DNA from: an uncultured Alphaproteobacteria bacterium
Lineage (GTDB): Bacteria > Pseudomonadota > Alphaproteobacteria > HIMB59
DNA length: 64,000 nt
Reading direction: 5' to 3'
Assembly (NCBI GenBank): GCA_902521155.1
Contig: CABYQR010000001.1
Span: forward strand, 1-64,000
Shown here: positions 14,465 to 38,165 of the stretch, piece by piece
Layout of the letters: each line of letters begins with the position of its first letter
Position numbering within the stretch: the stretch's first letter is position 1
Notes under the pieces: model-generated
The model's input: the letters and a program-made list of their open reading frames with translations, nothing else
What the model was told of the DNA's origin: nothing
The model's database searches: none
Made by a program: the position numbers and the translations under genes

Positions 14465-14740
14465 TTACTTAATTTCTATCTCAACAAAACTGTAGGGGAA
14501 ATTATTATTATTCAAAACATTATGGTTAACCCCTTTTTGCCTAAAGTAAGAATTTCCTTTTTGTAACTTTGAAATAGCTATCTCGCCATCATGGTTAATT
14601 ATTTTTAGTTCTCCATCTGACATAGGTACAACTACATAATCATATTCATGAATATGCTGTCCTGTTTCATCGCCAACTTCAAAAGACCATTCGGTAACTC
14701 GGGTCTTGTCGTTATCAATCATAACGTTGGCTTTTGCCAT
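14465..14740 (-). CDS. Small cupin-domain protein
   Basis: From internal ATG (MAKANVMIDNDKTRVTEWSFEVGDETGQHIHEYDYVVVPMSDGEL...); the longer ORF start in the track would overlap the upstream gene. Stop of the upstream ORF at 14745 fits this start. Confidence 0.75.
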   Translation of the reverse strand: MAKANVMIDNDKTRVTEWSFEVGDETGQHIHEYDYVVVPMSDGELKIINHDGEIAISKLQKGNSYFRQKGVNHNVLNNNNFPYSFVEIEIK

Positions 14741-14744
14741 TTTA

Positions 14745-15104
14745 TTAAATATTTCTACAAGGAACGCTCTCAGCTTTTTCAGCTTTAAGAGCCTCTGCAG
14801 CCTTTGTTGCCTCAACTTCTGTTTCATAGACCATGTCTGGAAAAAGAACAAATGGTTTTGCTCTATCTGCACTCAACTGACCAACACACCATGTTTTTCC
14901 AGGGTCAACACACATAACCATATATGTTCCTGGGATTGGTCCGTAATGTCTATTATTCAAAAAAAAAAGACATTCAGCCATATCGTTTAATTTGTCGATA
15001 TCAAGGTTTTGAAGTGCTTTTTTTTCTAGATCGTTAATTGGAGTATCAAGAGCTCCAAGGGTTTCTTTACCAAATGGAATTTCCTGCATATTTTCTTTTT
15101 TCAT
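14745..15104 (-). CDS. Conserved-looking small protein of unknown function in DMFase operon
   Basis: 119 aa, start immediately after the dmfA2-like stop; no recognised domain. Confidence 0.65.
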   Translation of the reverse strand: MKKENMQEIPFGKETLGALDTPINDLEKKALQNLDIDKLNDMAECLFFLNNRHYGPIPGTYMVMCVDPGKTWCVGQLSADRAKPFVLFPDMVYETEVEATKAAEALKAEKAESVPCRNI

Positions 15105-17459
15105 TTATGGTAAAGGTCCATCCTTTAGAAAACCTTTGAGAGTATTTTCCATAATTTTAGATACATTATTATTATAATTATTGTGAGATAAACTACCACA
15201 CCAGGCCAAAGAGCCTGGAGCAAACATTGCTCCATTATTTGGAGTTTTGTAATAAATCATATCCGCTCTAACCATTGGGTTTTCATGGCCACCACCATGA
15301 TAGCCTCTCACTGCAAAGTGAATTTCTTCATTTACCTGAAGCATCATATTTGAATGATCTTGGGATCGTGCTAAGTAAAATGCATTATGAGGAGTACCAA
15401 ATTCTAAGTCATAACGATCAAGTTCTACTCCAGCTGCTCCACCTCCCACTAATCCAAAATCTCCAATGACCTCATCGGCACCAATGCCTTCAAAGATCCA
15501 TGAGCACTCAGGTTTGAAACTATCCTCTTCTCGTTTATAATATGAGGAAACATCAAAACCATAAGAAGTAAAAGTTAGTCCACATACCTTAGAAGGTATT
15601 CTTCCTCTTGCTCTCCACATACCTCCGTATTTACCGTCAAACGCATTATTGTACTCCCCTGGATTAGCGGTCCACGCTCTCGTTCCAGCTTCACCTTTTC
15701 TAACTTCTGTTATGTTCGAGTTATCAGGATGATATTCGCTGATCCAATAAAAGCCGTCTGAACCAAGGTAGAAACATCTTCCACCTTGCATTTGATAAGA
15801 CTCAAGTGCATCCATATATTTCTCTGAAGAATACTCAGGATGACTACCTGTTAAAACTACTTTGTATCTATTTAAAAGATTAACACCTTCATGCTCTAAG
15901 TCTTCGTCTGTTAAAACATCAAATTCAAAACCTTTTTCTTCTAACCAGTCTGTTAAATGAAGATCGGCGTTTAATTGCCAAAGAGAAGGAGATAGCCAGT
16001 GTCTGTATTTAGGTCTCATATTCAAAATAGGTCTCAACCTTGATGAAATAGAAACACCATGTCCATCAGAGTGTAATGAATAAGTAGATAGTCCATACTC
16101 TCTGTGTTCATTTAAATATAAATCAGAAGGGTTTAAGACTGGAACTTTTCCTGCTAATAATTGTGCAACAACTGAATTAGTACCTAAGTTGTCATTTGAA
16201 TATGCCATGTAGCTATTAGTAGGAAGTAAAAATAAAATTTTTGATGTCGCTTTACCTTTGGGAGGTTTTACACAAAAGGGAATGTAATCTTCAAATTCAG
16301 ATTCTTCTCTTCCATCAACTCTTAACCTAACACCGTAAACTCCACTTTTTAAATTTTCAGGAACTTTTAAAGTAAAATCAACATCCCAACGGGCATCATC
16401 TATATCATCATCATGAAAATGGATAGCTCCATATTCTTCAGGCTTATGATGAAAAACCATTTCGTCTGCTGTCCAGTTATGTCCAGTCATACCTCTATTT
16501 GGCATATTAATTATGAAGCCATGATGATTATTTGGTGATGTATCAACAATTTTAGTTGAAGAAATATTTTTGCCGATATTGGCATGAAAATCCCATGCCG
16601 CCACTACAGTAGATCTTATATGAGTATTACACTCATCATAACTCGAAGCTAAAGACTCAATTTCAGCTTTTGATAAAGCAACATTTGATAATCTTGGTCT
16701 ATCAATTTTACCGTTGAATATTTTAGTTTGCTCGGGTAATTCAATTGGCTCTAAAACTTCCTTGAAATGTCCTCCTGATATTTTTCTACCAGATCTGTTA
16801 TGAAGAGAGGTAGCTGCAATAAGAACAGGAGAGTCATTTGGTGCCGGTATAACAGAACTTGTGGTTTCAATAATAGCTGAGGTTTCCTCAATAGGGTTTA
16901 AGATAGCCATTCCCAATCCACCATTAGTGGATGTAACTCTTGGCTCTTGATGTAGGGTTAGTCTTCTAGATTTCGCATCAAAAGTAGCAATAACAAGGTA
17001 CCATACTTTTCTAAGAAGTTTTTTTTCAGAGGAAATAGTAGTAACCTGTGAACCATCGCCAATTTCAACAGATAAACATCCATTATCATCAACAAAAAGA
17101 CCAAAACCTTTTTTGTCTTGTTCATTAAATTTAGTAAGAATTCCTTGTCTACCTTTATCTGGGGTAGTTGGGAAAATGTAAGCTTGCATTGTAAAGCTTT
17201 CAATATTTAAATTATCGTGCTGAGGAACAACTATGTAGGAACCACCATGAATTCTTTGATTTTTACCTTGGTATGAACCATTACAAGAAGCACTAATTTC
17301 TTCTTCCTTATAACCTGGGCCCTCAGGGTTTGTGTCTCCATGAATAAGTCTGACAAGTTGGACATCAAATTTGTCATTATTCTCTGCATTTATATAAAAT
17401 TTTATTTCTTCGCCCGGATGAGCTGAATATTTATCACTATACCCTGTTATTTTTAACAT
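15105..17459 (-). CDS. N,N-dimethylformamidase large (beta) subunit-like
   Basis: N-terminal LamG/ConA-like region plus C-terminal glutamine-amidotransferase-like region with TNSYMAYSND, STYSLHSDGHGVSISSRLRPILNMRP, LTGSHPEYSSEKYMDALESYQMQGG; matches DMFase architecture. Confidence 0.82.
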   Translation of the reverse strand: MLKITGYSDKYSAHPGEEIKFYINAENNDKFDVQLVRLIHGDTNPEGPGYKEEEISASCNGSYQGKNQRIHGGSYIVVPQHDNLNIESFTMQAYIFPTTPDKGRQGILTKFNEQDKKGFGLFVDDNGCLSVEIGDGSQVTTISSEKKLLRKVWYLVIATFDAKSRRLTLHQEPRVTSTNGGLGMAILNPIEETSAIIETTSSVIPAPNDSPVLIAATSLHNRSGRKISGGHFKEVLEPIELPEQTKIFNGKIDRPRLSNVALSKAEIESLASSYDECNTHIRSTVVAAWDFHANIGKNISSTKIVDTSPNNHHGFIINMPNRGMTGHNWTADEMVFHHKPEEYGAIHFHDDDIDDARWDVDFTLKVPENLKSGVYGVRLRVDGREESEFEDYIPFCVKPPKGKATSKILFLLPTNSYMAYSNDNLGTNSVVAQLLAGKVPVLNPSDLYLNEHREYGLSTYSLHSDGHGVSISSRLRPILNMRPKYRHWLSPSLWQLNADLHLTDWLEEKGFEFDVLTDEDLEHEGVNLLNRYKVVLTGSHPEYSSEKYMDALESYQMQGGRCFYLGSDGFYWISEYHPDNSNITEVRKGEAGTRAWTANPGEYNNAFDGKYGGMWRARGRIPSKVCGLTFTSYGFDVSSYYKREEDSFKPECSWIFEGIGADEVIGDFGLVGGGAAGVELDRYDLEFGTPHNAFYLARSQDHSNMMLQVNEEIHFAVRGYHGGGHENPMVRADMIYYKTPNNGAMFAPGSLAWCGSLSHNNYNNNVSKIMENTLKGFLKDGPLP

Positions 17460-17461
17460 TC

Positions 17462-17887
17462 TTATTCTCCACTATACTCTTCTAATAATCTATTAACTCT
17501 TTTTAAAAAAATAGCATGTTCACATGCCTCTTCAGATGAATAGGAATCCTCGGTAATTTCTACTGGCTCTCCCCTGACACCTGTGGTAATTCCAATACGG
17601 TAGTCCTCATGAAGCTTTAGACAAATAGTAACAAAACCATTTTCCTTGCTTCCTCTTCTTAATTTATCTAATAGAGTTTGAAGATCTTGACTATGTTGTA
17701 CCACGGGATGATCTCTTGTTGCCGCTCTTCCAACCGGTGTGGCTCTATGTTCTTCAATTAAAGACTTCAATTTTTGAGGATCTCTTAGCATGGGTAAGAT
17801 ATATTTCTTTGTAATAAAATCATCTGTGTGCTTATGGCCTTTATTTAATTGCACACTTGAAGGTTGCTTATAGCTATAATCTGACAT
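17462..17887 (-). CDS. N,N-dimethylformamidase small (alpha) subunit-like
   Basis: 141-aa ORF 2 nt upstream of the large subunit; size and position match the DMFase small subunit. Confidence 0.65.
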   Translation of the reverse strand: MSDYSYKQPSSVQLNKGHKHTDDFITKKYILPMLRDPQKLKSLIEEHRATPVGRAATRDHPVVQHSQDLQTLLDKLRRGSKENGFVTICLKLHEDYRIGITTGVRGEPVEITEDSYSSEEACEHAIFLKRVNRLLEEYSGE

Positions 17888-17994
17888 TATTTTATTGTAG
17901 TTCCTCTTATCCCTTCAAACAGTTTTTCGTTCCAGTATTTGAAACAGAATACGAAAAAAGATGCCAAAAATAAAGGTTTTTCTAATTTATTCAT
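17887..17994 (-). CDS. Unlisted 35-aa single-TM small protein between SSS symporter and DMFase small subunit
   Basis: Manual translation: MNKLEKPLFLASFFVFCFKYWNEKLFEGIRGTTIK*; begins 2 nt after the symporter stop and its TAA overlaps the next ATG (TAATG). Confidence 0.6.
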   Translation of the reverse strand: MNKLEKPLFLASFFVFCFKYWNEKLFEGIRGTTIK

Positions 17995-17996
17995 AT

Positions 17997-20051
17997 TTAT
18001 AAAGCATAAACAGATAGTATAACCGTAGCAACGGCCATACCTATTAGTATCAAAGGCCAACCATAGCCTCCGCCCATCTTATCAATATAATTTCCTTTAT
18101 CTTCGACGTCATCAGGAGCTGAGTATTCGTCTCCATTTAAAATAGGTTTTTTGGGGAGTGTTGATAGGTCCAATTTGTTAGCCATAAACCAGATTAACAG
18201 TACTCCAGCCGCCCACCATATGATTTGGTATGCCCAAAGGGAAGGTATGCCCATAACCCACTTATCATAAGACAAATCGGCACTTCCAAAAATTAGATTT
18301 CCAAAAATTAATCCAGGGCCAATAGAGAAAAATGCCCAGATAAGAAATAATACATAAGCTAAAGATTTAATTTTTTTTCTTGAAGGGTGAATTCCCATAT
18401 GATCATTCATAAAATCATGAAAACTTTTTCGATGTTCTTTATCAGCATCATTACTTGAAAAAGCAGATGATAAAAAACATACAATCACATTAAAAAATAA
18501 ACCCCACAATCCTGAATATATTGTAAGAGGCCATCTACCCCATGGAAGAGCATTTCCAGTTAACTTATGTCCAAAAGTCTCAGCTAGAATTACAAAAAAC
18601 ATACCAGTGATAAGGCCAAGAGTGGCTCCCGTTTTAGTAATCCAAGGGAACCAAATCATTCCTAATAAAACTGGAAATAATTGAAATCCAAAAGCTATTG
18701 CCAATCCCCCTAGGAGAATTAAAGATGTTTCAAAAAATGTGGCAAGATAAAGTGCTGCAAGACAAATAAGTAGCATTGCTAATCTTGCTACTAACAATTC
18801 TCTTTTCCAAGTTGGTTCTTTATCAATGTAAGGTCTGTAGAGATCTCTAGCGACCATGCTTCCAGAGGTCATTAAAAAAGCAGCAAGGGTTGATTGTAAT
18901 GCTGCTATCAAACAAATCGCTAGTAAGCCAACTAAGATAGGTGAAGCTGAGCCAAGACTTCCAATAAATGAAAAAATTAGTGATGAGACATTATTAATAT
19001 CTAACTCTGGAAGAATTTGATTAAGAGCAAAACCATTTAGATTTATGGATGGATTGGCGCCGAGTAAGTTAGCCCCCACTCCTAATAGGGCAGCGAAAAT
19101 AAATAAAAATATACCCACTATGGCTCCAGAGCCCCATATTTGGTAATAGTAGAATGACTTAGGAGATTTAACACTGTAACTCCACATTGAAAACGTAGGT
19201 GATAGAACTATTCCCATATAAGAAAGAGTAAAAGATAAAATCATCACAGCAGTCCAGGGACCTCCTGAGGGATTATTTTTACCTAAACCACCGACCCACT
19301 GAATTACGCCTGGCACATTGAAGAAACCAGAGAGGTCACCTCCCCCATATCCTTGAGTGGAGCCCCAAGTTCCAAAAGATATAAAACTATTTGCTGTTGC
19401 TAAATCATCAAAAAAACTCAATCCACCCAAATAATAATAAGTACCAAGTCCAATCGATATGAATAAAACAAAAAATAACCAGGATTGAACTACACCTATG
19501 CTGATCATAGATTTGAAACCTCCTGAGACAACATAGAATAAAACAACTGCAGTTAAAACCCACATCGCTGAGTCTCTTCCCAATTCACCTGCACTCACAA
19601 ATTCAACCATACTACCCGTTGCTCCAATAACTAATCCAAGAAATGGAACAGCAAAAAATAAACCTATAATTAAAATTGTAATTCTAAGAGTATGGCTTTT
19701 ATAATATTTAAAATACATTTCACCTGGGGTTATAAGATTATATTTTCTGCTCAACATCCATTGACGTTTGAAAAATAAAATACTCCCTAAAGGAATGGTA
19801 ATTACAATTGCTGCTGTTGCTAAAAAAGAATACCCATCAGCATATATTAGTGAAGGGAAAGTGATGATTGTGATACCCGCAAAGGTTGCTGCAGTAGCAG
19901 AAAAAAAGAATACCCAAGATGAGATACTTCTATCGGCTAAGTAATAGGACTCAGGTGAAGAATTTTTTCTAAGAGTTCTAGCTCCCCAAAATAGGCAAAA
20001 GCTCCAATAAACAACTAGGAAGAAAAAGAACCAATATAAGTTAGCTAACAT
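17997..20051 (-). CDS. Sodium:solute symporter (SSS) family protein
   Basis: 684 aa, multi-TM, VYWSFCLFWGARTLRKNSSPESYYLADRSISSW, SLLLxG-type helices typical of SSS. Confidence 0.88.
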   Translation of the reverse strand: MLANLYWFFFFLVVYWSFCLFWGARTLRKNSSPESYYLADRSISSWVFFFSATAATFAGITIITFPSLIYADGYSFLATAAIVITIPLGSILFFKRQWMLSRKYNLITPGEMYFKYYKSHTLRITILIIGLFFAVPFLGLVIGATGSMVEFVSAGELGRDSAMWVLTAVVLFYVVSGGFKSMISIGVVQSWLFFVLFISIGLGTYYYLGGLSFFDDLATANSFISFGTWGSTQGYGGGDLSGFFNVPGVIQWVGGLGKNNPSGGPWTAVMILSFTLSYMGIVLSPTFSMWSYSVKSPKSFYYYQIWGSGAIVGIFLFIFAALLGVGANLLGANPSINLNGFALNQILPELDINNVSSLIFSFIGSLGSASPILVGLLAICLIAALQSTLAAFLMTSGSMVARDLYRPYIDKEPTWKRELLVARLAMLLICLAALYLATFFETSLILLGGLAIAFGFQLFPVLLGMIWFPWITKTGATLGLITGMFFVILAETFGHKLTGNALPWGRWPLTIYSGLWGLFFNVIVCFLSSAFSSNDADKEHRKSFHDFMNDHMGIHPSRKKIKSLAYVLFLIWAFFSIGPGLIFGNLIFGSADLSYDKWVMGIPSLWAYQIIWWAAGVLLIWFMANKLDLSTLPKKPILNGDEYSAPDDVEDKGNYIDKMGGGYGWPLILIGMAVATVILSVYAL

Positions 20052-20065
20052 AAAACAATGTTAAA

Positions 20066-20929
20066 TTAAGAATTATATTCAGTTTTTTCCTTAATTATTC
20101 TTAGGGCCTCTAAAAGGTATACTCGGAAGAGTTCATGATTTTCACTCATAGGGAAGTGACCTATATCCTTCATCTCGATATATACACCTCCTTTGATTTG
20201 TCTTGCTGTATCTTCAGTTGCCTCAGGTGGTGTTAAGTAATCATAGTCACCCGTTAGCATAATAACAGGGCACTTATGGCCATCAATATTTTGCAGTTCA
20301 TCTCTTAAGTCGTGGTCAACAGAATAAAAATGGAGATCTCCTTTAAAAGCCTCTGAGCCCTGAGTGTAATAATGCCATGTAAGCCATCTGTCCATATCAG
20401 GAGATTGAGGGGCCATTAAATCCCATACTCCACTTCCACAAACTTGGGCTGCGTTAGCATGAGGATGTCTCCACCAATCAATATAAAAGCCTGGAGAATA
20501 ATGGGCTGCTTCGACTGGAATAACAGCTTTAAATTTATTTGGGTATTTTAATGCGAGCTGGAGAGCAACATTTCCACCAAAAGAAGACCCCATAAATATA
20601 GGGTTATCTAGATCTAAAGCCTTACAAAGTTCTAATATAAAATTACAATAGTGTTCTGCTGTAAGCTTATATTCTTCTTTCCACCACTCAGTATTATGAG
20701 CGGGGTCTGATTTACCATGCCTTGGAAGGTCGTATGCTATAACTTGGTAGTTTTGAGTAATTTCATCATCCTCTAGTAATCCTCTCCATTGGTGATTGTG
20801 GCAACCGGCAGTATGCTGACAAACTAAAGGAGTACCTTTTCCATTTGAAAGATAAAATACTTTATATTGCTGTCCATCAACTTCTATTGTTACGTATCTA
20901 CCGATGGGGTCGTGATGTTTAACTGCCAT
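20066..20929 (-). CDS. Alpha/beta hydrolase
   Basis: Nucleophile elbow GSSFGG, YDLPRHGKSD, C-terminal DIGHFPMSE. Confidence 0.9.
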   Translation of the reverse strand: MAVKHHDPIGRYVTIEVDGQQYKVFYLSNGKGTPLVCQHTAGCHNHQWRGLLEDDEITQNYQVIAYDLPRHGKSDPAHNTEWWKEEYKLTAEHYCNFILELCKALDLDNPIFMGSSFGGNVALQLALKYPNKFKAVIPVEAAHYSPGFYIDWWRHPHANAAQVCGSGVWDLMAPQSPDMDRWLTWHYYTQGSEAFKGDLHFYSVDHDLRDELQNIDGHKCPVIMLTGDYDYLTPPEATEDTARQIKGGVYIEMKDIGHFPMSENHELFRVYLLEALRIIKEKTEYNS

Positions 20930-20957
20930 TAAAAAGTCTCCTTAGAATATATAATCA

Positions 20958-21347
20958 TTAAACTGGAACTCCTGATTTTCTGAGAAGCTCAAATTGTACA
21001 ACAAAGTTTCTGATATTTTGCATCAATATAAGATGATTGCCTTCAATTAAAAGATCTCTTCTAAAAGAAGCTGCATAGATACCATGATACATTGGTTTTG
21101 GAATAGGCCTTGCAAATTCCCTCCATGTTTTTTCAGATGCTCTTAAAGCAAAGTCATAAGGATCTAATCCCCCAGGGCTAGTATTAATGTTCTTAACTTT
21201 ACCATCATGCATTTCAATTATGACTTTGACACTTTCCATATCAAATAGAAATGAACAGGTGTAATATTTAGCCATAGCTTTAATGGTTTCGTCACTTTCA
21301 GTGAGGTCCTTAAATTTCTTAGCCCAAGATTTTATATCTATACTCAT
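20958..21347 (-). CDS. SCP2 sterol-binding-like domain protein
   Basis: SFLFDMESVKVIIEMHDGKV...DFALRASEKTWREF...DLLIEGNHLILMQNIRNFVVQFELLR pattern resembles SCP2 fold proteins. Confidence 0.5.
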   Translation of the reverse strand: MSIDIKSWAKKFKDLTESDETIKAMAKYYTCSFLFDMESVKVIIEMHDGKVKNINTSPGGLDPYDFALRASEKTWREFARPIPKPMYHGIYAASFRRDLLIEGNHLILMQNIRNFVVQFELLRKSGVPV

Positions 21348-21357
21348 ATCTTATACC

Positions 21358-23343
21358 TTATTTCTTTTTTGGATTTTTTTTTGTATCTTCGTCAAATCTC
21401 ATATGTTTATCTTTTTTAGGATCTTCGTAGTCTCCTAAAATATTTCTTATATTACTGGCTTCCCCAGGGGACATCCCGATTTCTTTTAGTAAACTATCTA
21501 AGAAAGGTTGTTGAGCTCTATATCTTAAAGCTGAGTTAACTACGTTATCTGCAAGAGAGCCTTTTTTGGAGTCTCCACCATAACTTGCCGAAGAACCTTC
21601 TGATCCGGTTCCATCGCCTGAAGATCCACCTTGGCTAAAACCAGGTAAGCCGTTAACATCTACAACTTTGATAGAGTCGATATTCTGCATTGGCTTGACC
21701 CACTCTCTAATAATGCCTTCGATTTTTTCTGCTAATTTTAATCTTAATGCACTTCTTCTACTTGCATCACTTCTTAAGTTTTCAGCTTCATTAAGGGCTT
21801 TTTTGCCAGAAGCTTCAATCTCATATCTTATTTTAGCAGCCATAGCAGCCAGTTTTTCTCTTTCAGCATTCTTACTAGCATCAATTACTCCAAGAGCTTT
21901 TGCTTTTTCAGCTTGTTCGATATCTCTAATAGAATTAACTTTTTCCTCTGCCTCTACAGCCTTCGCTCGAGCAACCTCTTCTTCCATTTTAGTTTTTAAG
22001 ACATTTTTAGACTTTTCGAGAACCTCTTGTTGTTTTTGCTTCTCTTCAATTTCAATTCTCTTAGCTTTTTCAATATCTAAAACTCTAGTTTCCTGTTCAG
22101 CAGCAATTTTAAAAGAGTCAACATTTTTTTGTTGAGCAGTTTTTGCGTTTTTAATTTGCTCTTCTGCCATAATGTAAGCCTCTTCAGACTCATATCTCTT
22201 TCTGGCTTCTTCTTTTGCTGTTTGAGCTTTTTCTTCAGCTAGTTTTATGTCAACAGATCTTTGTTTTTCCAAACGGCTAAATTCGACATCACGCTCTAAC
22301 TCAAGAATTGATTTTTCAGTATCAACGTCTCTTTGTTTTATTTCAATATCGGTTTGTTTCCTAAATTCGTTTTGTTCTTTTCTTCTTTTTTCAATTTCTT
22401 GAATAAGTTTTGTTTCTTGAATACTTTTTTCCATTTCGACAAAATCTTTTTTACCTATTCTTGCAATTTCAATATCCTTTTGAGAAGATATTTCAGCTAA
22501 CTCAGACTCTTTTTCTTTTTCAGATTTTGTTTTTATAGTTTCAGTGTTTTCAATAGCTCTTTGTTGTTCAATTTCTCTTTTTTGCTGATACTTAGAAAAT
22601 TCTTCTTCTTTCTCTATTTCGAGTGTTTGTTTAATAGATTGAAGGTTTTTATTTCTAATACTAACTTCAGTATCTTTTTCAATATCATTTCTTTTTTTCT
22701 TTCTGGATTGAGTAAACTCTGTGATTTGCGTTAATCCTTCAGCATCGAAAGTGTTAGATGGGTCAAAAACATTTACAGGTGCTTGGTTCAGAGAGGTTAA
22801 GGAAACTGTCTCAAGTTCTAAACCTGTATGCTTAATAGCTTCTTCAACGTGAGCTGCTACTTTTTTAATATATTCTGATCTATTTTCCTGAATTTCATCT
22901 AAGCTCATTTTAGCAGCCACTACGCCTAAACCATCAACAAATCTACCTTGAACTAGTTCTTTCAAACTATCCGGTTCTAAGGTTCTGTTTCCAAGTGTTT
23001 GTGCTGCTATAGAAACAGCCTCTTTATTAGGGGCAACCCTAACATAGAATTCTGCTGTGACTTCAGCTCTCATCCTATTCATTGTAATAAAAGACTTATT
23101 TCCATTTCTTTGAACTTCAATACTCAAGGTCTTCATTCCGACAGAAGTAATATTGTGAACAATAGGTAATACAAAAGCACCGCCACTAATTACGACTTGC
23201 TCGCCACCCATTCCAGTTCTAACAAATGCTACTTCTTTAGAGGATCTTCTGTATAACCAATGAAGTAAGTAAACGATAATAGCTATAGCTAAAGCTATTA
23301 AAATAATGACTGCAATTATGTCTGCTCCGCTTGTAATGTTCAT
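21358..23343 (-). CDS. Flotillin/YqiK-like SPFH-domain membrane scaffold protein
   Basis: N-terminal TM, SPFH region (VVISGGAFVLPIVHNITSVGMKTLSIEV...), about 300-residue charged coiled-coil, C-terminal oligomerisation-like tail. Confidence 0.88.
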   Translation of the reverse strand: MNITSGADIIAVIILIALAIAIIVYLLHWLYRRSSKEVAFVRTGMGGEQVVISGGAFVLPIVHNITSVGMKTLSIEVQRNGNKSFITMNRMRAEVTAEFYVRVAPNKEAVSIAAQTLGNRTLEPDSLKELVQGRFVDGLGVVAAKMSLDEIQENRSEYIKKVAAHVEEAIKHTGLELETVSLTSLNQAPVNVFDPSNTFDAEGLTQITEFTQSRKKKRNDIEKDTEVSIRNKNLQSIKQTLEIEKEEEFSKYQQKREIEQQRAIENTETIKTKSEKEKESELAEISSQKDIEIARIGKKDFVEMEKSIQETKLIQEIEKRRKEQNEFRKQTDIEIKQRDVDTEKSILELERDVEFSRLEKQRSVDIKLAEEKAQTAKEEARKRYESEEAYIMAEEQIKNAKTAQQKNVDSFKIAAEQETRVLDIEKAKRIEIEEKQKQQEVLEKSKNVLKTKMEEEVARAKAVEAEEKVNSIRDIEQAEKAKALGVIDASKNAEREKLAAMAAKIRYEIEASGKKALNEAENLRSDASRRSALRLKLAEKIEGIIREWVKPMQNIDSIKVVDVNGLPGFSQGGSSGDGTGSEGSSASYGGDSKKGSLADNVVNSALRYRAQQPFLDSLLKEIGMSPGEASNIRNILGDYEDPKKDKHMRFDEDTKKNPKKK

Positions 23344-23373
23344 ACCTATTTATCACCTCCTAGATTGATTTTT

Positions 23374-24072
23374 TTAAGCATTAGCTCTTGTGTCCTGTGT
23401 TGCTGCCTTATAGATAATCAATCCAAAGACAATTTTATTTAAAAAATCTGCTAAATTATAAATTATATTAACACTGTTTGGGTCTATACCTCCACCCAGA
23501 TGCTCTATAAAATATCCCATAGGATATATAGCCCATCCAATAGTCAGTATTAATCTGTTTGAGAAAAAAGCCATTTGGATATTTTCGTTACCACATTTTG
23601 CATTTGCTCTTCCAGCTTCTCCAACATAAAGCTCTCCAAGAACGTAAAGCCATCCAACTAATCCAACAATGAAACCTAGTGTTTTGCTCATATATCCAGC
23701 AGCACCTAAAAATTCAGCTACGATAAAAACTAATGTTCCAACTAAAAGCCTCCAAAACATTCCTTGTTTGACTTTCACTACTGAAGTCAGCATTGCGTAA
23801 AAAATTAATACCTGCATTGGAAAGTTTAAAAACCAATCTACATATCTCAAAATAGTTGGGGCTGTTCCACTAACGACCCATAAATTTTTAATGAAAAAGT
23901 AGTGAATTGAAGACATAAGGCAGACAACCGCAATCATTGTCATTGGGGTATGCCATCGGACACTAACTTTACTTCTTTCAAAAAAGAAGAATAAGGTTGC
24001 ACCAATCATAGCAACTGAAATTAACCAGAAAGATCCTCCTACGATATCGTAGGGTAATAACATTTTATTCAT
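23374..24072 (-). CDS. Microbial (proteorhodopsin-like) rhodopsin with non-canonical D-N-I motif
   Basis: Seven TMs; LRYVDW (helix C), GWAIYPMGYF, YNLADFLNKIVFGLII with retinal Lys213; H57 equivalent of PR H75; N83, Q87, I90 at PR 101/105/108. Confidence 0.95.
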   Translation of the reverse strand: MNKMLLPYDIVGGSFWLISVAMIGATLFFFFERSKVSVRWHTPMTMIAVVCLMSSIHYFFIKNLWVVSGTAPTILRYVDWFLNFPMQVLIFYAMLTSVVKVKQGMFWRLLVGTLVFIVAEFLGAAGYMSKTLGFIVGLVGWLYVLGELYVGEAGRANAKCGNENIQMAFFSNRLILTIGWAIYPMGYFIEHLGGGIDPNSVNIIYNLADFLNKIVFGLIIYKAATQDTRANA

Positions 24073-24200
24073 TTTACCTTACTTATTCCTCTTGCATTAA
24101 ATATATTACCTAAAACAATAGCATTATAAGTTTTTGTTTCAGCAAATGAAACGAATATTCCCTCTGTCTTATATATATGTGTAAAAAAACTGTTGATCAT
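24069..24200 (-). CDS. Unlisted 43-aa small protein between ABC permease and rhodopsin
   Basis: Manual translation: MINSFFTHIYKTEGIFVSFAETKTYNAIVLGNIFNARGISKVK*; start overlaps the permease stop (ATGA) and stop overlaps the rhodopsin start (ATGA). Confidence 0.65.
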   Translation of the reverse strand: MINSFFTHIYKTEGIFVSFAETKTYNAIVLGNIFNARGISKVK

Positions 24201-25588
24201 ATTTGCTCTCTTATATGAGGGGCTCGAGAATAAAGCGCCACTAGCGGAAGAATCAATAAGCCAAAAATAAATTGCTGTCCCTCAAAACTTAAACCAAGAC
24301 CTGCAAGAAATGTACTTATAACTTGAAGGGCTAAACAGCCTATAACGGTATATCCATATCCTCCATATCCTCCTAATAAAGAAGTGCCACCAACTGCTAC
24401 TGCTGCAACTGTTAAAAATAGGTATTGGTCACCTACTCCAATAAAACCTCCTCCACTCCATCCTAAAAGCATGGCTCCGGTGGCCGCTGATGTAAAACCG
24501 CTAATAACAAAAACTCCTACCCAATAAACTCTCTCAGATATTGATAATCTATCAGCTGAAAGTCTTTTACCTCCAACAGCATATAAGTTTCTTCCCCATT
24601 TAGTATGTCTCATGCCAACAATCAATACGATGGAAGCAAGAATCCAAATTAAAATGACAGGTGGTATTGGAAGACCAAAAAATTTTCCATTTAAGGATGC
24701 TAGATTTTTTAACCAATCTGGGACAACTCCGAAAACTGTACCACCGGTAACAGTTGGTAGAGAAACTAAAATTTGAACTCCTCCCACACACATAAAACCT
24801 ACACCCAGGGTAACAATGAGCGCCTGTCCTTGGAGGTTAAAACTTATTAGTCCATTAAACAAACCGACAAGAATTCCAAAGACTAAAATAACTATGAAAG
24901 CTAGCCAAGGGGGAACACCCAGAGAAATCATTGACATTAAACCTAAGTTCGATGAGCCAATTAAAAAGGGAATAGAAAGATCAAGACCTCCAAGCATCAC
25001 AACAAGTGTTTGTCCTATTGTGGCAAGACCTAAGAAAGATGCAAAGACCAACATTGATTTTATATTTTGAATAGACAAGAAACCATCAATTGAAACTGAA
25101 CCTATAATAAAAAGACCTATCAACACTGATACACCTATGATGACACTTCTATTTATGTTTAAGAATTTATAGGCAACAAAGGCAAGTATTAAAAAACCTA
25201 AAAAAATTATTGCTGATACAACTGTTCTTCCGGAAAAGAATCCTGGAACTAGAAAACATAATAGAATGAATAATGCTAATAAAAGGAGAAATCCTGTGAC
25301 AGCAATCCAATTTCGAGAGATTAATTCCCAGAATAAGCTTCTTTTAGCAGATTCTTCAATTGCATCAATTTGCTCTGAGATATCTTTTTTTTCAGATAAC
25401 TTATAGGACCACTTAATGGAGAAATGATGCCAACCCCATAGGACTAATGCCGTGACCGCAACGGAGTAGAATGCAACCTGTATCCAGTCAGTTCTATCGA
25501 CATACCCTAATACGGCCGTCCCAATTCCTGCAGCCACCGCAAAGAAAATTCCTAAACCCTTAGAAAAATTAAATATTCTTTTTTCCAT
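24197..25588 (-). CDS. Ribose-type ABC transporter permease with N-terminal extension
   Basis: BPD_transp_2 features (GGLDLSIPFLIGSSNLGLM, GQALIVTLGVGFMCVGGV, AVAVGGTSLLGGYGGYGYTVIG), 463 aa. Confidence 0.9.
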   Translation of the reverse strand: MEKRIFNFSKGLGIFFAVAAGIGTAVLGYVDRTDWIQVAFYSVAVTALVLWGWHHFSIKWSYKLSEKKDISEQIDAIEESAKRSLFWELISRNWIAVTGFLLLLALFILLCFLVPGFFSGRTVVSAIIFLGFLILAFVAYKFLNINRSVIIGVSVLIGLFIIGSVSIDGFLSIQNIKSMLVFASFLGLATIGQTLVVMLGGLDLSIPFLIGSSNLGLMSMISLGVPPWLAFIVILVFGILVGLFNGLISFNLQGQALIVTLGVGFMCVGGVQILVSLPTVTGGTVFGVVPDWLKNLASLNGKFFGLPIPPVILIWILASIVLIVGMRHTKWGRNLYAVGGKRLSADRLSISERVYWVGVFVISGFTSAATGAMLLGWSGGGFIGVGDQYLFLTVAAVAVGGTSLLGGYGGYGYTVIGCLALQVISTFLAGLGLSFEGQQFIFGLLILPLVALYSRAPHIREQI

Positions 25589-25593
25589 ATTCT

Positions 25594-27864
25594 TTAGTTT
25601 TCCCTATCCTCTGTTAGGCCTCCCCATTTTTCAAGCCCTTCCTGAGATTTAAGCTTCACTTTATAAACACTAAATGCCTGCCATACTAAAGGAGCAGATA
25701 AGATACCTGCGGAAGTAATTAAGAGCATTTTCCAAAATGGATAACCAACTCCATAAAATAAAGCTGACCAAGTAAGAGCCGCTATGCTTAATAAGGGTAT
25801 GTATGACTTAAATCTAGCATAAGTAACTCTTCCTTGCAGGGTCAGGTAAGTAAAAAATTGGAACACAAAAATTGCAAATATGATTAAACCTGTTTCCTTG
25901 AGGAAAGTAATATTTTCTCCTAAGAAATCTCCTCTTACAGGCCTACTATAGGCAACTGATGAGGTATCACCAATATTAAGTTCTGTTATAATAGGAGTGA
26001 AATATTTTGAACCATCATCTGATATAATTGTACCTGAAGGAGATGCTAAAAAATAAACTCCTAAAATTGCTAGTATTCCTAAGAATACAATAAATATATT
26101 ATTTAAATTAACCTGAGTTAATAATGTCGGAGCTGTAAGAAGAAATAATAAAAGACATATAAGAATAACCGCATATCCATCTATCCCAAAGAAACTTTGT
26201 CTATTAGCTTCAACACCATAATATGCGACACCAGCAAAAACAATAATTGAAACTACGATTGCAAAGAGAACTAACGTTTGAGTTTTTATTTCTTTTCTAA
26301 ACTTTGGTAAGGCAATGATAACAATAGCTGAGGTGAAAAATACTATTCCTGCAAGTGTTGCTATTGCATAGGTAATGCCTACTAAAAAGCTTGAGGAAGT
26401 AAAGTCAGGTAATCCAGATCCAATTCTTAAATAATCTGATGAAAAATACTGTGGTGCGTAATTTAAGATATACTGTAAGTTGGATCCTAGGTCTTGATTA
26501 ACAAAGTTAACAGCTCTAGTTCCGCTAAAGACACATCCAAAAAATATTACAATTGATGCAATTATAAAAGAAACTGTGGGTGCATCTCTATGCTTGACCA
26601 AAAGGTAAATAAGGTAAATTAAAGAGGCAATTCCTATAGCAATAAACAACCATACTGTCGAGTTACCTCCTTCTGCACATGCTTTACCTGTGATTAAACA
26701 ATCACTGCCCGACTCGAGGGCTTTTTCAAAAATTTCTGCATCTTTTGACTTTCCGCCAAACCCGCCGACTGTTCCTCGCGTAACTTGATCAAATTTCATG
26801 TGAATTTGAACAGCAGCGGCACTCAACATACCTATTATAAAGAAAACAAAGACAGATAAATTTTTTAAAGCTTTTTGGATGTAAGGAAGGGCAATTAGTA
26901 TTAATAGCGAGGCTACTAAAACAGCTCCGTAAGATAAATCTGTTACAAAACTTTGAAACCTTTCAAATCGAAAAGTAGATAATATAAAATTAATTAAATA
27001 GATATTGAGCGCTCCAAGGATTGCCCCGAAAGCACCTCCTCGACCCCCTACTAAACTAGAACCTCCAAGCACTAATGCTGTTATTGCCATAAGTGTATAT
27101 GTTGTGCCTTGGGTAGGATCACCTGAACCAATCAAACCGGTAAAAGCAATGGCTGCAAGAGCTGCGTATACGCCACCTATTATATGAGCACCAATTCTAA
27201 CTAAATAAATTCTAACACCACTGGTATAAGCTGATTTTTCATCAGAGCCCATTAACTTTAAATGTTGCCAGAATGCTGTATGTGTTAGCGCATACCAAAT
27301 TAATGTTGAGAATATGAGGAGTATGAGAACAGGTTGTATAATTTCAGTTCCAGCACTCCAAGATAACATCCAGTCAGGAGCCCTTCCCCCTGGTCTGGGT
27401 AAAATTACTAGATTTATCCCAGAAAAAGCCAAAAACATACTTAATGCAACGATAATGGGTTGGACACGAACAAATAAAACGATCAAGGCGTATAAGAATT
27501 GATAAATAACTCCAATTGCAATAGCACAAACAAAGTATGCAACGGGCGATTGAATATACCCCGCTCCATATAATTGGATTGTGGTTACATTTATAAAACC
27601 GATCAAGGGACCCATTGATAAGTCCACTGTTACTCGGCCTGCAAGAGCTAATACGGTAAGTGCATACGTAGCTAGTATTAAAGGTGTAGAGACCATTATG
27701 GCAGTTCCTATTCCAGAAGGAGATATAATTTGAGGACCTCTTATAAGAGCAAAAATAATTAAAGCAAAAAATATGAAGATAGGAACGATTAAATACTTTG
27801 AAGATTGAGGGTCAGAGCCAGAGATTTGTGAAGGCTTGATAATATTTATGATTTGAGAAACCAT
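25594..27864 (-). CDS. Ribose-type ABC transporter permease with large extra C-terminal multi-TM region
   Basis: N-terminal ~330 aa typical (VTVDLSMGPLIGF, GVRIYLVRIGAHIIGGVYAALAAI, LVLGGSSLVGGRGGAFGAILGAL); ~420 aa additional hydrophobic segments. Confidence 0.88.
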   Translation of the reverse strand: MVSQIINIIKPSQISGSDPQSSKYLIVPIFIFFALIIFALIRGPQIISPSGIGTAIMVSTPLILATYALTVLALAGRVTVDLSMGPLIGFINVTTIQLYGAGYIQSPVAYFVCAIAIGVIYQFLYALIVLFVRVQPIIVALSMFLAFSGINLVILPRPGGRAPDWMLSWSAGTEIIQPVLILLIFSTLIWYALTHTAFWQHLKLMGSDEKSAYTSGVRIYLVRIGAHIIGGVYAALAAIAFTGLIGSGDPTQGTTYTLMAITALVLGGSSLVGGRGGAFGAILGALNIYLINFILSTFRFERFQSFVTDLSYGAVLVASLLILIALPYIQKALKNLSVFVFFIIGMLSAAAVQIHMKFDQVTRGTVGGFGGKSKDAEIFEKALESGSDCLITGKACAEGGNSTVWLFIAIGIASLIYLIYLLVKHRDAPTVSFIIASIVIFFGCVFSGTRAVNFVNQDLGSNLQYILNYAPQYFSSDYLRIGSGLPDFTSSSFLVGITYAIATLAGIVFFTSAIVIIALPKFRKEIKTQTLVLFAIVVSIIVFAGVAYYGVEANRQSFFGIDGYAVILICLLLFLLTAPTLLTQVNLNNIFIVFLGILAILGVYFLASPSGTIISDDGSKYFTPIITELNIGDTSSVAYSRPVRGDFLGENITFLKETGLIIFAIFVFQFFTYLTLQGRVTYARFKSYIPLLSIAALTWSALFYGVGYPFWKMLLITSAGILSAPLVWQAFSVYKVKLKSQEGLEKWGGLTEDREN

Positions 27865-27867
27865 ATT

Positions 27868-29376
27868 TTAATCGAAGAATACTACTTTCATTTTTTCTCC
27901 ATTGTCTAAAGATCTAGATTCTTTTCTCATTATGCCTAATTTATCAGTTTCTGATATTTTAATTTTTTTGGGATCCACGCTATTTAAATTTTCTAAATTA
28001 TTATTAGGGGCAATATTGGAGATCAATAAATTTAAATTATTCTCAATGTATTTTGTATTATGATTGCCTTCTTGAAAGTTTTTGTCTTGCAAGAGTGAAA
28101 TTAAAAATGGGATATTCGTTTTAATACCTTTAATTTGAATTTTTTTTAAGTATGCAATTAATTTATCGATGGCATCCTCTCTAACTAAATCATGAGATAT
28201 AATTTTTCCAATCATGGGATCATAATAAAAACTTATTTCTTCATTTTCTTCAAAACCCCAATCAAGACGAATACCATTTGGAGGATCAGGGAATATCATC
28301 TTTGAAATTTTTCCAGGAGAAGGTAAAAAATTTTTTTCTGGATCCTCTGCATATACTCGACACTCTATTGCGTGGCCATAGCTAGAAATCTTTTCTTGAT
28401 TTAAAAATTTGATTTTTCTATTAAAAGCAAAATTTATTTGCATAGAAATTAAATCGTTATTTGTAACTAATTCTGTTACAGGGTGTTCTACTTGAATACG
28501 TGTATTCATTTCCAGAAAATAATATTTTTGTTCATCCATATCATAAATAAATTCAACTGTTCCTGCACCTTGGTAATTTACATAAGATGCTAATTTGATA
28601 GCCGATAAAGCCATATTATCTATAGTGTCTCTAGAGATTTTAGGTGCTGGAGACTCTTCAATTATTTTTTGATACCTTCGTTGCATTGAACAATCTCTCT
28701 CAAATAAATGAACAGAGCCCTTCTTACCAAAACCAAATACTTGGATTTCGATATGTCTGGCATTAGTAATAAATTTTTCTAAAAAAATACTCCCATCACC
28801 AAATGCTTTTTTGGCTAAGGTAGAAGTTTTTTCTATAGCTTTTTCTAAGTCTTCGTAGTTACTTACGATATTCATTCCAATGCCTCCACCACCGGCACTA
28901 GATTTTACTAAAATCGGAAATCCTATCTTTTCACATTCGGTTTTTAAATGTTGCTTACTCAATTTATCTATTTCATTAAGTCCAGGACAGATGGGAACAT
29001 TAGATTTAAGGGCTAGGTCTCTTGCAACATCTTTGTTTCCCATTGATCGAATAGTTTCTGGCTTAGGCCCAATCCATATAATTTGATTATCTATTACTTT
29101 TTGGGCAAATTGATCATTCTCGGATAAAAAACCAAAGCCTGGATGTATAGCATCTACTTTAGCCTCTATTGCAACTTTTATTATCTTGTCTGCATTAAGA
29201 TAGCTTTCTTGAGATTTACTTGGCCCGATATGAAAAGCCTCATCAGCCCTTTTAACATGCTTAGCATTTTTATCTGCATCTGAATAAACAGCTACAGATT
29301 TATATCCGAGTACCTTGCAGCTCTTGATAATCCTAATTGCGATTTCTCCTCGGTTAGCTATTAAAATTTTTTTCAT
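27868..29376 (-). CDS. Biotin carboxylase (AccC-like) subunit
   Basis: KKILIANRGEIAIRI, HPGFGFLSEN, SSAGGGGIGMNIV, ERDCSMQRRYQKIIEESP, EMNTRIQVEHPVTE. Confidence 0.95.
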   Translation of the reverse strand: MKKILIANRGEIAIRIIKSCKVLGYKSVAVYSDADKNAKHVKRADEAFHIGPSKSQESYLNADKIIKVAIEAKVDAIHPGFGFLSENDQFAQKVIDNQIIWIGPKPETIRSMGNKDVARDLALKSNVPICPGLNEIDKLSKQHLKTECEKIGFPILVKSSAGGGGIGMNIVSNYEDLEKAIEKTSTLAKKAFGDGSIFLEKFITNARHIEIQVFGFGKKGSVHLFERDCSMQRRYQKIIEESPAPKISRDTIDNMALSAIKLASYVNYQGAGTVEFIYDMDEQKYYFLEMNTRIQVEHPVTELVTNNDLISMQINFAFNRKIKFLNQEKISSYGHAIECRVYAEDPEKNFLPSPGKISKMIFPDPPNGIRLDWGFEENEEISFYYDPMIGKIISHDLVREDAIDKLIAYLKKIQIKGIKTNIPFLISLLQDKNFQEGNHNTKYIENNLNLLISNIAPNNNLENLNSVDPKKIKISETDKLGIMRKESRSLDNGEKMKVVFFD

Positions 29377-30155
29377 TAATCGGCAACTATATATGGCATT
29401 TTTTTATCAGTTATATCTTTTGGTTCTTTTGCGGGATTGTTTTGAGACATATTTTTTCTCAATGCTTGAAGTATTTCAATAGCATTGGGTGTATCCGAAT
29501 GAACGCATATAGTTTCACATCCAACATCAATATCTGTATTATTAACTGTCTTAACCTTATTCTCTTTAATAGCTCTCATACATCTTTCAACAGCTAAATC
29601 TGCTGGGTAGTATTTATTTCTTCCTTTTGCAATAACTAAATATCCTGTCTCGTCGTACTCTAAGTCCGAATAGAACTCCGCTATAAATTTAATACCTCTT
29701 TCTTTGTAAACCTTTTCATGAAAAGTATTCACCATTCCAAAAATGCCTACTCCAAAAATTTCTGCAGCATCAGCTATTCCATGAGCTACATCTTCTTCTT
29801 TGGCAGACACTCCATATAAAGAGCCGTGGGGCTTGATATGATTCAATGGAAGCTTAAATTCTTCTAAATAAGCTTTCAGAGCCCCTGTTTGATACATAAC
29901 TAAGTTTTTAATTTCTTCTCTTTGCATTTTCATAGGTCTTCTGCCAAAACCTACTAGATCTGGATAAGCGGGATGAGAACCAACTTTGACATTATGTTTT
30001 TTTGCCAATTCAACAGTTTTTCGCATTGTATTAGGATCAGATGCATGAAATCCACAAGCGACGTTGGCTGCATCTATGAAGGGCATTATTTCGGAGTCTT
30101 CAGCGAAGGAATATATACCAAATCCTTCTCCCATATCACAATTTAGGTCTACCAA
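29376..30155 (-). CDS. pxpA: LamB/YcsF family protein (5-oxoprolinase subunit PxpA-like)
   Basis: DLNCDMGEGFGIY, NVACGFHASDP, VGSHPAYPDLVGFGRRPM, CVHSDTPNA; TTG start with AGGAGG. Confidence 0.92.
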   Translation of the reverse strand: MVDLNCDMGEGFGIYSFAEDSEIMPFIDAANVACGFHASDPNTMRKTVELAKKHNVKVGSHPAYPDLVGFGRRPMKMQREEIKNLVMYQTGALKAYLEEFKLPLNHIKPHGSLYGVSAKEEDVAHGIADAAEIFGVGIFGMVNTFHEKVYKERGIKFIAEFYSDLEYDETGYLVIAKGRNKYYPADLAVERCMRAIKENKVKTVNNTDIDVGCETICVHSDTPNAIEILQALRKNMSQNNPAKEPKDITDKKMPYIVAD

Positions 30156-30295
30156 GCATCCTCCTTACACTATAAATTTACAGAAATTAGAGATTTATTG
30201 TTAAATTCTTATCCACATAATGGAACGTTTTTTATAAATTAAATTGAATGTTATGTATTATTATTAAAACTTTAAAATAAGTAAGGAGGAATAAA

Positions 30296-31456
30296 ATGGC
30301 AATGTTAAGAAAATTTATCGCAATTTTTGCTATTAGTTTCATCGGTATCGCAGGAACTTCAAATGCTGATATCCTAGATGAAATACCTGCCGACATTAGG
30401 GACTTTGTTTATGATCCTGATTTTATGGATCCTATGCAACCTTTGGGTGAAAGTGTTTATAGAAATTGGAAAAGTGATAGACCTCTTCCATGGACTATTG
30501 GATACGCAAGTTCTTATGCTGGTAACCTTTGGAGAAAAGGTGTTATGGAAAGATTATACGGTGACTACCTTCCAAAGATGAAGGAAGCAGGTATCTTAAA
30601 TGATATCGTAGTTACTCAATCTAACCTAAAAGATGCTGTTCAAATTCAGCAAATGAGACAACTAGTTGACCAAGGTGTTGATGGACTTGTCGTATGTTGT
30701 TCAAACCCTGTAGCTTTAAACCCTACTATTGAATATGCATATGGTAAAGGTGTACCAACAGCTTCTATGACTGGTTTTTTGACATCAGAATATGCAATCA
30801 GTACTTCAGTTAATTATGCTTTAACTGGTTACTATATTGCTTCTTGGTTAGCCGAGACTATTGGTGGTGAAGGAAACGTTGTTATCATGGAAGGTATTCC
30901 AGGAGCTTCAGCCTCTGACTCTCAGCATGCTGGTATGTTAAAAGGTTTTGCAGAATATCCTGACATTACTGTTGTAGCTGAAATAGCACATATGTGGACT
31001 CCACAAATTGCTCAAGCAGAACTTCAGAAATGGTTATCTGCGAACACTACAGAAGTACATGGATTTGCAGTTCAATCTTCTGGTGAGTCTGGTGCTTTAA
31101 ATGCATTAGAATCCTCTGGTAGACCAATGGTGCCAATGGCCCTAGGTGGAGAGATTGGAGCTTTCTGTTATTGGAGAAATAATCCTGATTTCATCGATAG
31201 AGCTGTTTATGCTTGGCCTCCAGGGGACGACGCAGAATTTGCAATGAACGTTCTTTTAAAGACAATGAAGGGTCAAGGCTTAAAGATGCAATCTATTCTT
31301 GTGCCTCCTTATGAAGAAGATGTAGAAACTATTCAATCATTTGTACCTGAAGATTGTGACAGAAACTCTAGTGAGTTTAGAACTGTCGGAATCGAAAACT
31401 GGGCAAGTGACGATTATCTAAACAACTTCTTTGATAATGGTGAGCCTTTAATTTAA
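30296..31456 (+). CDS. Sugar-type (Peripla_BP_4) periplasmic substrate-binding protein
   Basis: Signal peptide, GYASSYAGNLWRKGVMERL, QIQQMRQLVDQGVDGLVVCCSNP; AGGAGG before ATG. Confidence 0.9.
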   Translation: MAMLRKFIAIFAISFIGIAGTSNADILDEIPADIRDFVYDPDFMDPMQPLGESVYRNWKSDRPLPWTIGYASSYAGNLWRKGVMERLYGDYLPKMKEAGILNDIVVTQSNLKDAVQIQQMRQLVDQGVDGLVVCCSNPVALNPTIEYAYGKGVPTASMTGFLTSEYAISTSVNYALTGYYIASWLAETIGGEGNVVIMEGIPGASASDSQHAGMLKGFAEYPDITVVAEIAHMWTPQIAQAELQKWLSANTTEVHGFAVQSSGESGALNALESSGRPMVPMALGGEIGAFCYWRNNPDFIDRAVYAWPPGDDAEFAMNVLLKTMKGQGLKMQSILVPPYEEDVETIQSFVPEDCDRNSSEFRTVGIENWASDDYLNNFFDNGEPLI

Positions 31457-31469
31457 TACTCAGTCATTA

Positions 31470-33248
31470 ATGAATGAGGAAAAAATTCAAGATAGCGCTT
31501 CTGAAGATCAAGCGCTATCTTCTCCAAAAGCTGGAGGGGACATATACGTCCAAGATGCTGATAAATCTTTTGGCGTTACAAAAGCTCTAAACGGAGTTAA
31601 TTTCAAAGCAAATTTTGGTGAAATCCACGCTATTGTTGGTGGCAATGGATGTGGTAAAAGCACTTTAGCTAAAGTAATATCTGGAGTTCTTCCATTAGAT
31701 AAAGGAAAAGTTTCAATAATGGGGCATTCTCCTAACTCTCCCATTGAAGCTCAAAAAGTTGGAATTTCAACAGTGTTCCAGGAAGTTATGATTGCCGAAG
31801 AGGCAACTGTTTATGAAAATTTATTTATAGGATATGACTCATTTTTTGGGAAAAAATTAAGTCATAGAGAAAAAGTTGAAAAAGCAGCCTCTATAATGTT
31901 GGAGCTTGCTGGTGAATTTGTGGATCCCTACACTATTGCTAGCCAACTCTCTTTAGGGATGAAGGCTTGGATCACAATTGGAAGGGCTTTTTTAAGAAAT
32001 CCAAAAGTTTTGATCTTAGATGAATCTTCAGCCGCTTTAGACTTTGATTCAACAGAAAGGCTTTTTGCAAAAATGAGATCATTACGTGATCAGGGTGCTG
32101 CAATATTTATTGTAACTCATCGAATTGCAGAATTAGTCCGAATAAGCGATAGAGCAACTGTTATGAGAGACGGTAAAGATGTTGGAGTTTTAGCCGGAGA
32201 TGAAATAACAGAAAAAAACTTACTCCGCCTAATGACAGGAGATAAAAAATTTTCGACTGCTTCAGAAAATAGATCGACACCCCCTCTTTCTAAAACTGAT
32301 GAGATAGTCTTATCATCCAAAAATTTAAAAGTATGGGATGATGGTGAAGAAATAAATTTCGAACTTCCAAAAGGTGAAATACTAGGGGTGACTGGACTGG
32401 ATGGGCAAGGGCAAGATAATTTTGTAAAAGCTTTATCTGGTATCGATCAACCCTTAAGTGGAGAAGTAATTGTTAAGCAATCTGACGAAGAAAGAGAATT
32501 AACAAAAAAAGAATTTAAAAAAGTTGAGAGCTTATTAGAAGCTAAAAAAAGTGGTATTGGGTATGTCTCAGGGGATAGAAAAAAAGAAGGAATATTTCCA
32601 AATATGAGTATCTATGAAAATATGGTTATTCCCTTATATAAAGGCAAGCAGGCAAAAACCTCAGGAGGATTTTTAGGTTTTATTAAATGGATAGAATTAA
32701 ATGGAATTTTTGATTGGGAAGTTGAGAGACTAAGCATAAAAACTGGGCCTAAAAATAATCTCATAACTTCACTAAGTGGAGGTAATCAACAAAAAGTTAT
32801 GATCGCCAGGGCTTTTACAACTACTCCTAAAATTTTAATTCTTAACGATCCAGCTAGAGGTATTGATGTAGGCGCCAAGAGGGATCTTTACAAACATTTA
32901 AGGATCTTTGTAAATGAAGGAGGAACAGTAATATTTCTCTCAAGTGAACTAGAGGAATTTATTGGCCTTTGTCACCGCGTGCTTGTTTTTAGGGATGGAA
33001 GTATTTTTGAAACATTTGAAAAAGAAGATATTGATCCTAATATTATTTTAGAGGGAATGTTTGGTCACACAAAAAAGAAGTCTCTCTCAAGCCAAAATGT
33101 TACTACAAAAAATAGTCAGGGTAATGACCTTGATAAAGTTATTGCAGCTAAGGTAAATCAAGCTCCTTCAAAACCCACTAATATTAAAGTAGTTGATTTC
33201 AAAAAAAAATCAGATCAGACAGATAAAATTAAAATTAAATACTTTTAG
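31470..33248 (+). CDS. Ribose-type ABC transporter ATP-binding protein (duplicated NBD)
   Basis: Walker A GGNGCGKSTLAK, VLILDESSAALD; second half LSGGNQQKVMIARAF. Confidence 0.92.
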   Translation: MNEEKIQDSASEDQALSSPKAGGDIYVQDADKSFGVTKALNGVNFKANFGEIHAIVGGNGCGKSTLAKVISGVLPLDKGKVSIMGHSPNSPIEAQKVGISTVFQEVMIAEEATVYENLFIGYDSFFGKKLSHREKVEKAASIMLELAGEFVDPYTIASQLSLGMKAWITIGRAFLRNPKVLILDESSAALDFDSTERLFAKMRSLRDQGAAIFIVTHRIAELVRISDRATVMRDGKDVGVLAGDEITEKNLLRLMTGDKKFSTASENRSTPPLSKTDEIVLSSKNLKVWDDGEEINFELPKGEILGVTGLDGQGQDNFVKALSGIDQPLSGEVIVKQSDEERELTKKEFKKVESLLEAKKSGIGYVSGDRKKEGIFPNMSIYENMVIPLYKGKQAKTSGGFLGFIKWIELNGIFDWEVERLSIKTGPKNNLITSLSGGNQQKVMIARAFTTTPKILILNDPARGIDVGAKRDLYKHLRIFVNEGGTVIFLSSELEEFIGLCHRVLVFRDGSIFETFEKEDIDPNIILEGMFGHTKKKSLSSQNVTTKNSQGNDLDKVIAAKVNQAPSKPTNIKVVDFKKKSDQTDKIKIKYF

Positions 33249-33253
33249 ATTAA

Positions 33254-34510: not shown

Positions 34511-34513
34511 GAA

Positions 34514-35482: not shown

Positions 35483-35485
35483 AAA

Positions 35486-35704
35486 ATGGCAACTGAAGTC
35501 TTAACATCGGTTCCTGGAAATATATGGAAAGTACTTGTAAACGTTGGTGATACTGTGAATGAGGGAGATGTTCTTTTTATAATGGAGGTTATGAAATCAG
35601 AGGTAAATCACAATGCTCCCATTAGTGGTACTATAATTGAAATCAACATTCATAATGATCAAGAAGGTGTCGATCCAGGCACGGTAGCTATTTTAATAGA
35701 ATAA
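35486..35704 (+). CDS. Biotin carboxyl carrier protein (biotinyl domain)
   Basis: 72 aa, VLFIMEVMKSEVNHNAPISGTI biotinyl-lysine motif (EVMKS). Confidence 0.88.
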   Translation: MATEVLTSVPGNIWKVLVNVGDTVNEGDVLFIMEVMKSEVNHNAPISGTIIEINIHNDQEGVDPGTVAILIE

Positions 35705-36319: not shown

Positions 36320-36359
36320 ATATTTAGAAAAACAATTAAACATGATAAGTTATAAACAT

Positions 36360-36857: not shown

Positions 36858-36858
36858 T

Positions 36859-37086: not shown

Positions 37087-37087
37087 T

Positions 37088-37681: not shown

Positions 37682-37700
37682 AGTTTATTATAACATTAAT

Positions 37701-38150: not shown

Positions 38151-38165
38151 AAATTTTATTAAATA

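Follow-up and report, generated by a model that had tools for sequence, protein, structure and literature searches.

A HIMB59-type FArhodopsin with a DNI motif lies beside a flotillin gene on an accessory genomic island

Flotillin-associated rhodopsins (FArhodopsins, FARs) have been described from SAR11 (motif DTT), Pseudothioglobus (DTL) and HIMB59/AEGEAN-169 (DNI) by Haro-Moreno et al. 2023 (PMC10308929). They are reported always to be accompanied by a flotillin gene, with an ordinary proteorhodopsin (PR) as the second rhodopsin, and in SAR11 the FAR and flotillin genes are co-transcribed (PMC10308929). In the same study, the retinal lysine is missing from most freshwater FARs, and the discoverers' AlphaFold models clash with retinal in all three marine FAR groups. 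The DTT FARs neither bound retinal nor pumped when expressed in E. coli (PMC5864233). A companion paper on AEGEAN-169 (= HIMB59) reports rhodopsin homologues and makes no functional prediction. FArhodopsins occur widely among the most abundant bacteria of the sea, and each well-placed member is informative.

The window analyzed here is a stretch of 64,000 nucleotides from an uncultured alphaproteobacterium of the HIMB59 lineage (contig CABYQR010000001.1). Its rhodopsin gene is a HIMB59-type (DNI) FArhodopsin. An earlier note on this sequence stated that DNI fits no known group; the observation of the motif is correct, and DNI is the published motif of the HIMB59 FArhodopsins. The gene and its neighbors are as follows.

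13520..40100, no strand assigned: FAR island, approximately 26.6 kb, absent from the complete genus-mate G030
15105..17459, minus strand: N,N-dimethylformamidase beta-subunit-like protein (DMFA2_C), named in the published cluster
17997..20051, minus strand: sodium:solute symporter (PF00474), named in the published cluster
20066..20929, minus strand: alpha/beta hydrolase (Pfam), conserved in the cluster by locus comparison
20958..21347, minus strand: open reading frame for a 129-aa protein with no Pfam match
21358..23343, minus strand: flotillin, 661 aa (PF15975 Flot and PF01145 Band_7), directly downstream of the rhodopsin gene
23344..23373, minus strand: rhodopsin-flotillin spacer, 30 bp, with the strong Shine-Dalgarno-like sequence AGGAGGTGAT
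23374..24072, minus strand: FArhodopsin gene, 232 aa (PF01036), with the DNI motif, Q87, F84, E120 and K213
24197..27864, minus strand: two ABC-transporter inner-membrane permeases (BPD_transp_2), the "inner membrane translocator" of the published cluster
27868..30155, minus strand: biotin carboxylase and a PxpA/LamB-YcsF protein, from domain matches
30296..35482, plus strand: sugar-type ABC binding protein and ATPase, with two carboxyltransferase-domain proteins (PxpB/PxpC or urea-carboxylase-like)

The published HIMB59/AEGEAN-169 FArhodopsins share with the window the DNI motif, Q or L at the tuning site, the conserved lysine, a downstream flotillin gene on the same strand and a second, DTE rhodopsin. 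Their cluster of approximately 26 kb likewise contains the DMFase, the symporter, the biotin carboxylase and carboxyltransferases, and PxpA. The 129-aa protein may be the sterol-carrier-domain protein listed in that cluster. The flotillin spacer is 30 bp in the window, whereas 16 nt is published for SAR11; otherwise nothing substantial differs.

The translated gene has a Bac_rhodopsin Pfam match (E = 3.5e-30) and a predicted seven-helix fold (pLDDT 89.7), which rules out a chance open reading frame. The dN/dS of the FAR gene is 0.017–0.03; the gene is under strong purifying selection and is not a decaying pseudogene. The protein is 40.6% identical to green proteorhodopsin over 219 residues (sequence from PDB chains). 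All of the residue equivalences listed earlier hold in this alignment: H57/H75, D79/D97, N83/T101, Q87/L105, I90/E108, A124/E142, D209/D227 and K213/K231 (window/green proteorhodopsin). The constant offset of 18 that had been given for them applies to helices A–E and G; in residues 154–194 (helix F), the offset is 17. The Schiff-base end is intact (K213, D79, D209, R76 and W80); both the lysine and the Asp counterion of the proteorhodopsin pumps are present. The window rhodopsin has DNI (D79, N83 and I90) in place of the pump DTE, and the residue at the donor position, isoleucine, is neither Glu nor Asp nor Lys. The earlier note is supported in that the protein does not belong to the standard pumps for protons, sodium or chloride and lacks the donor carboxylate. 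The first predicted helix begins at residue 10, in agreement with the note, which saw no clear sign of a cleavable signal peptide. By contrast, the paralog elsewhere in this genome has a signal-like N-terminus of approximately 20 residues.

FAR loci were compared in 80 cases from public genomes, comprising uncultured alphaproteobacterial single cells, Pelagibacterales, and some gammaproteobacterial and other bins. The rhodopsin phylogeny with motif extraction that had been proposed as a check places the window rhodopsin in a clade of its own, apart from the pumps. In the maximum-likelihood tree, the division between FARs and pumps has support of 100/100. The window rhodopsin falls inside the DNI clade (96/98), which is sister to the DTT clade. 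Its nearest relative, with an identical protein, is from the single cell AG-325-G13. K213 is present in 80/80 FARs. Rare FARs contain Glu in place of Asp, either at the counterion (L109 and L122, motif ETT) or at the second counterion (L119). One metagenome bin of the genus contains a second, DTT-type FAR cluster (L033, on G015:C23; L120), which lies on an 8-kb contig and closely resembles the SAR11 cluster. This cluster is probably mis-binned rather than part of a genome with two FARs.

In all 80 FAR loci, a flotillin gene is next to the rhodopsin gene, downstream and on the same strand, and the spacing in the relatives is 3–79 bp. FAR and flotillin form the only universal pair across the 12.7-kb loci compared. 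The pair is accompanied by the 129-aa protein and the hydrolase in HIMB59, in SAR11 and in two DTL loci; the DMFase-like gene accompanies it in HIMB59, in SAR11 and in two different DTL loci. Flotillin-type genes away from any FAR are present in some genus-mates (G002:C1:90412-90780, G024:C1:43626-44000 and G013:C52:7637-8017, in frames of approximately 580 aa); in G002 and G024, this gene is a second copy. Because of these genes, the paper's statement that the flotillin beside the FAR is the only copy does not always hold.

The genus-mate G030 is a single contig and a 99%-complete genome without a FAR. In this genome, the counterparts of window positions 12212-13516 (xylose isomerase) and 40173-40874 are approximately 120 bp apart. 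This site contains no close counterpart of any window gene from 13520 to 40100, and genome-wide only distant paralogs of two island genes are present. Since the flanking genes adjoin in G030 without the intervening genes, the island is approximately 26.6 kb. This size matches the discoverers' figure, and the gene types match their list. The FAR gene is carried by 26 of 36 same-genus genomes, and several of the others are incomplete. Carriage by viruses was also considered, and no FAR is present in viral contigs. At the edge of the island is an AttM-type N-acyl homoserine lactonase (13523-14464, minus strand; NF045700, over cut-off). Between 24197 and 35482, the ABC permeases are unusually long (756 and 463 aa), and the biotin carboxylase, the PxpA-like protein and the two carboxyltransferase-domain proteins lie around the sugar-type ABC transporter.

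The same genome contains a DTE proteorhodopsin (G000:C15:3173-3817). This gene is followed by crtI, crtB, a lycopene-cyclase-family gene and blh; the retinal-making operon thus sits with the pump and not with the window FAR.

The missing donor is a lesser oddity of this protein than two departures in its retinal pocket, F84 (pump V102) and E120 (pump G138). The earlier note mentions neither these residues nor the minus strand of the gene. Positions 84, 120 and 137 (pump G155) are V/G/G in 17/17 pumps compared. Among the FARs, the window type has F/E/G, the sister DNI type has F/G/W, the DTT type has F/Q/G and the DTL type has H/E/G. We take the three positions to correspond to BR T90, G122 and S141, respectively. 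When residue volumes are summed over the nine ring-site positions of the aligned sequences, every FAR exceeds every pump. PDB entry 9r23 is the PsFAR mutant H84V/E120G, in which the structure depositors altered the same two positions. Retinal binding by the window FAR is doubtful, as judged from these residues. Within the DNI clade, sequences with the tuning residue L87 have G120 and W137, versus E120 and G137 in the window type. Since all other FARs have E or Q at position 120, this pattern is suggestive of a single event in which one plug would have been swapped for another on the branch leading to the L87 sequences. No description of the G120/W137 detail was found in the literature searched. 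The two DNI sub-types seemingly plug the same pocket with different residues and form a testable natural comparison.

The best PDB hit of the window rhodopsin is PsFAR from Pseudothioglobus (9r21, E=7.9e-99). The predicted model matches 9r21 most closely (TM 0.95, 61% identity), followed by the mutant 9r23 and then by the PsPR pump and other proteorhodopsins. PsFAR (9r21/9r23) is 61–62% identical to the window rhodopsin and shares its fold (TM 0.95), E120, Q87 and A124. It differs in its D-T-M motif, in H84 (F84 in the window) and in F at position 57 (H in the window). The deep-water DTT-T rhodopsins of SAR11 (Olson et al. 2018, PMC5864233) are FARs of the sister clade that similarly lack the donor and the signal-peptide region and contain F84. 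They differ from the window rhodopsin by T at positions 83, 90 and 87, Q120, F at 180 and H at 184. The green and blue proteorhodopsin pumps (7b03 and 4jq6; PsPR, 9r22) share the fold, the counterions, the His-Asp pair and the retinal lysine. Unlike these pumps, the window rhodopsin has no donor carboxylate, has lost E142, has a probably filled ring pocket, contains no signal peptide and has a flotillin partner.

The reading that we favor, and consider reasonably probable, is that the HIMB59-type FAR is a probably retinal-free, non-pumping seven-helix membrane protein that works with flotillin in a microdomain. The window FAR would bind all-trans retinal inefficiently and would not pump. It would be a seven-helix membrane component, probably pentameric like proteorhodopsin, and in a putative partnership with flotillin it would organize a membrane microdomain, most likely one that serves the transporters encoded on the same island. 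Light-driven pumping would be done by the ordinary DTE proteorhodopsin of the genome. The low dN/dS and the intact Schiff-base end (K213 in 80/80 FARs) argue that the protein is not simply dead. Three observations stand against this reading. Essentially all marine FARs retain the retinal lysine and the counterions, which is odd if retinal is never used. The expression failures in E. coli were obtained with no flotillin present and with no DNI protein. Finally, HIMB59 FARs reach their highest abundance in the well-lit upper layer (PMC10308929).

The earlier note proposed instead that the protein binds retinal and, for want of a donor, has a slow photocycle suited to a light sensor or regulator. 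Retention of K213, D79, D209, H57 and R76, replacement of the donor carboxylate by I90 and recruitment of HIMB59 FARs in the upper photic zone are consistent with this proposal. We consider it unlikely, since the ring pocket appears filled at positions 84 and 120, the two that the PsFAR structural group mutated, and the DTT relatives bound no retinal in E. coli (PMC5864233). As for a sensory role, no transducer, kinase or cyclase gene is adjacent to the window rhodopsin, whose neighbors are the flotillin and an ABC permease gene, and the partner gene is the flotillin. Slow Schiff-base reprotonation requires bound retinal; with the pocket apparently filled, and given the E. coli data for DTT FARs and the discoverers' models, that mechanism is probably moot. 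The doubt about retinal shifts the focus from photocycle kinetics to ligand binding and the flotillin partner. The intact Schiff-base end beside an apparently plugged ring end would suit a slim ligand at K213, either a fatty acid or a shortened apocarotenoid, by which the protein would sense or buffer the lipid or carotenoid state of the membrane in the flotillin domain. In favor of a non-retinal ligand, retinal-free green proteorhodopsin holds decanoate, salt-bridged to the same lysine and with no ring density (PMC11322631). We nevertheless regard this ligand role as decidedly unlikely, as the literature searched contained no evidence of a ligand for any FAR and most freshwater FARs lack the lysine (PMC10308929). 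A broader form of the idea, which we hold to be improbable, is that the marine FARs are opsins turned from photon to lipid receptors. In such receptors, E120 or Q120 with F84 or H84, or W137 with F84 where position 120 is G, would plug the ring end; K213 and the counterions would hold a slim linear carboxylate or aldehyde, whose occupancy would control assembly of the flotillin microdomain.

Equally improbable is the discoverers' proposal of a mixed complex with the DTE proteorhodopsin, in which the FAR would tune the performance of the pump. Every FAR genome in the published single-cell set also has a PR (PMC10308929), and a PR is present in 22 of 27 genus genomes with a DNI FAR, the assemblies being incomplete. 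However, the complete genus-mate G030 has a PR and no FAR, and the FAR gene is located on an accessory island, not in the vicinity of the PR operon. That the protein is a proton pump with another donor, such as a buried E120, is barely credible. The window type does have this extra carboxylate in helix D, but in the alignment its counterpart in the pump is the ring-side G138, not the cytoplasmic donor, and the sister DNI clade has G120; on these two points, E120 was rejected as a substitute donor. The DTT relatives, moreover, did not pump (PMC5864233).

Outside the pocket, residue E190, at the outer end of helix F (codon near 23500), also distinguishes the two groups. The residue at this position is E, N or Q in 83/83 FARs and G in 17/17 pumps. 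Position 190 is thus a FAR-specific site and is possibly a partner interface.
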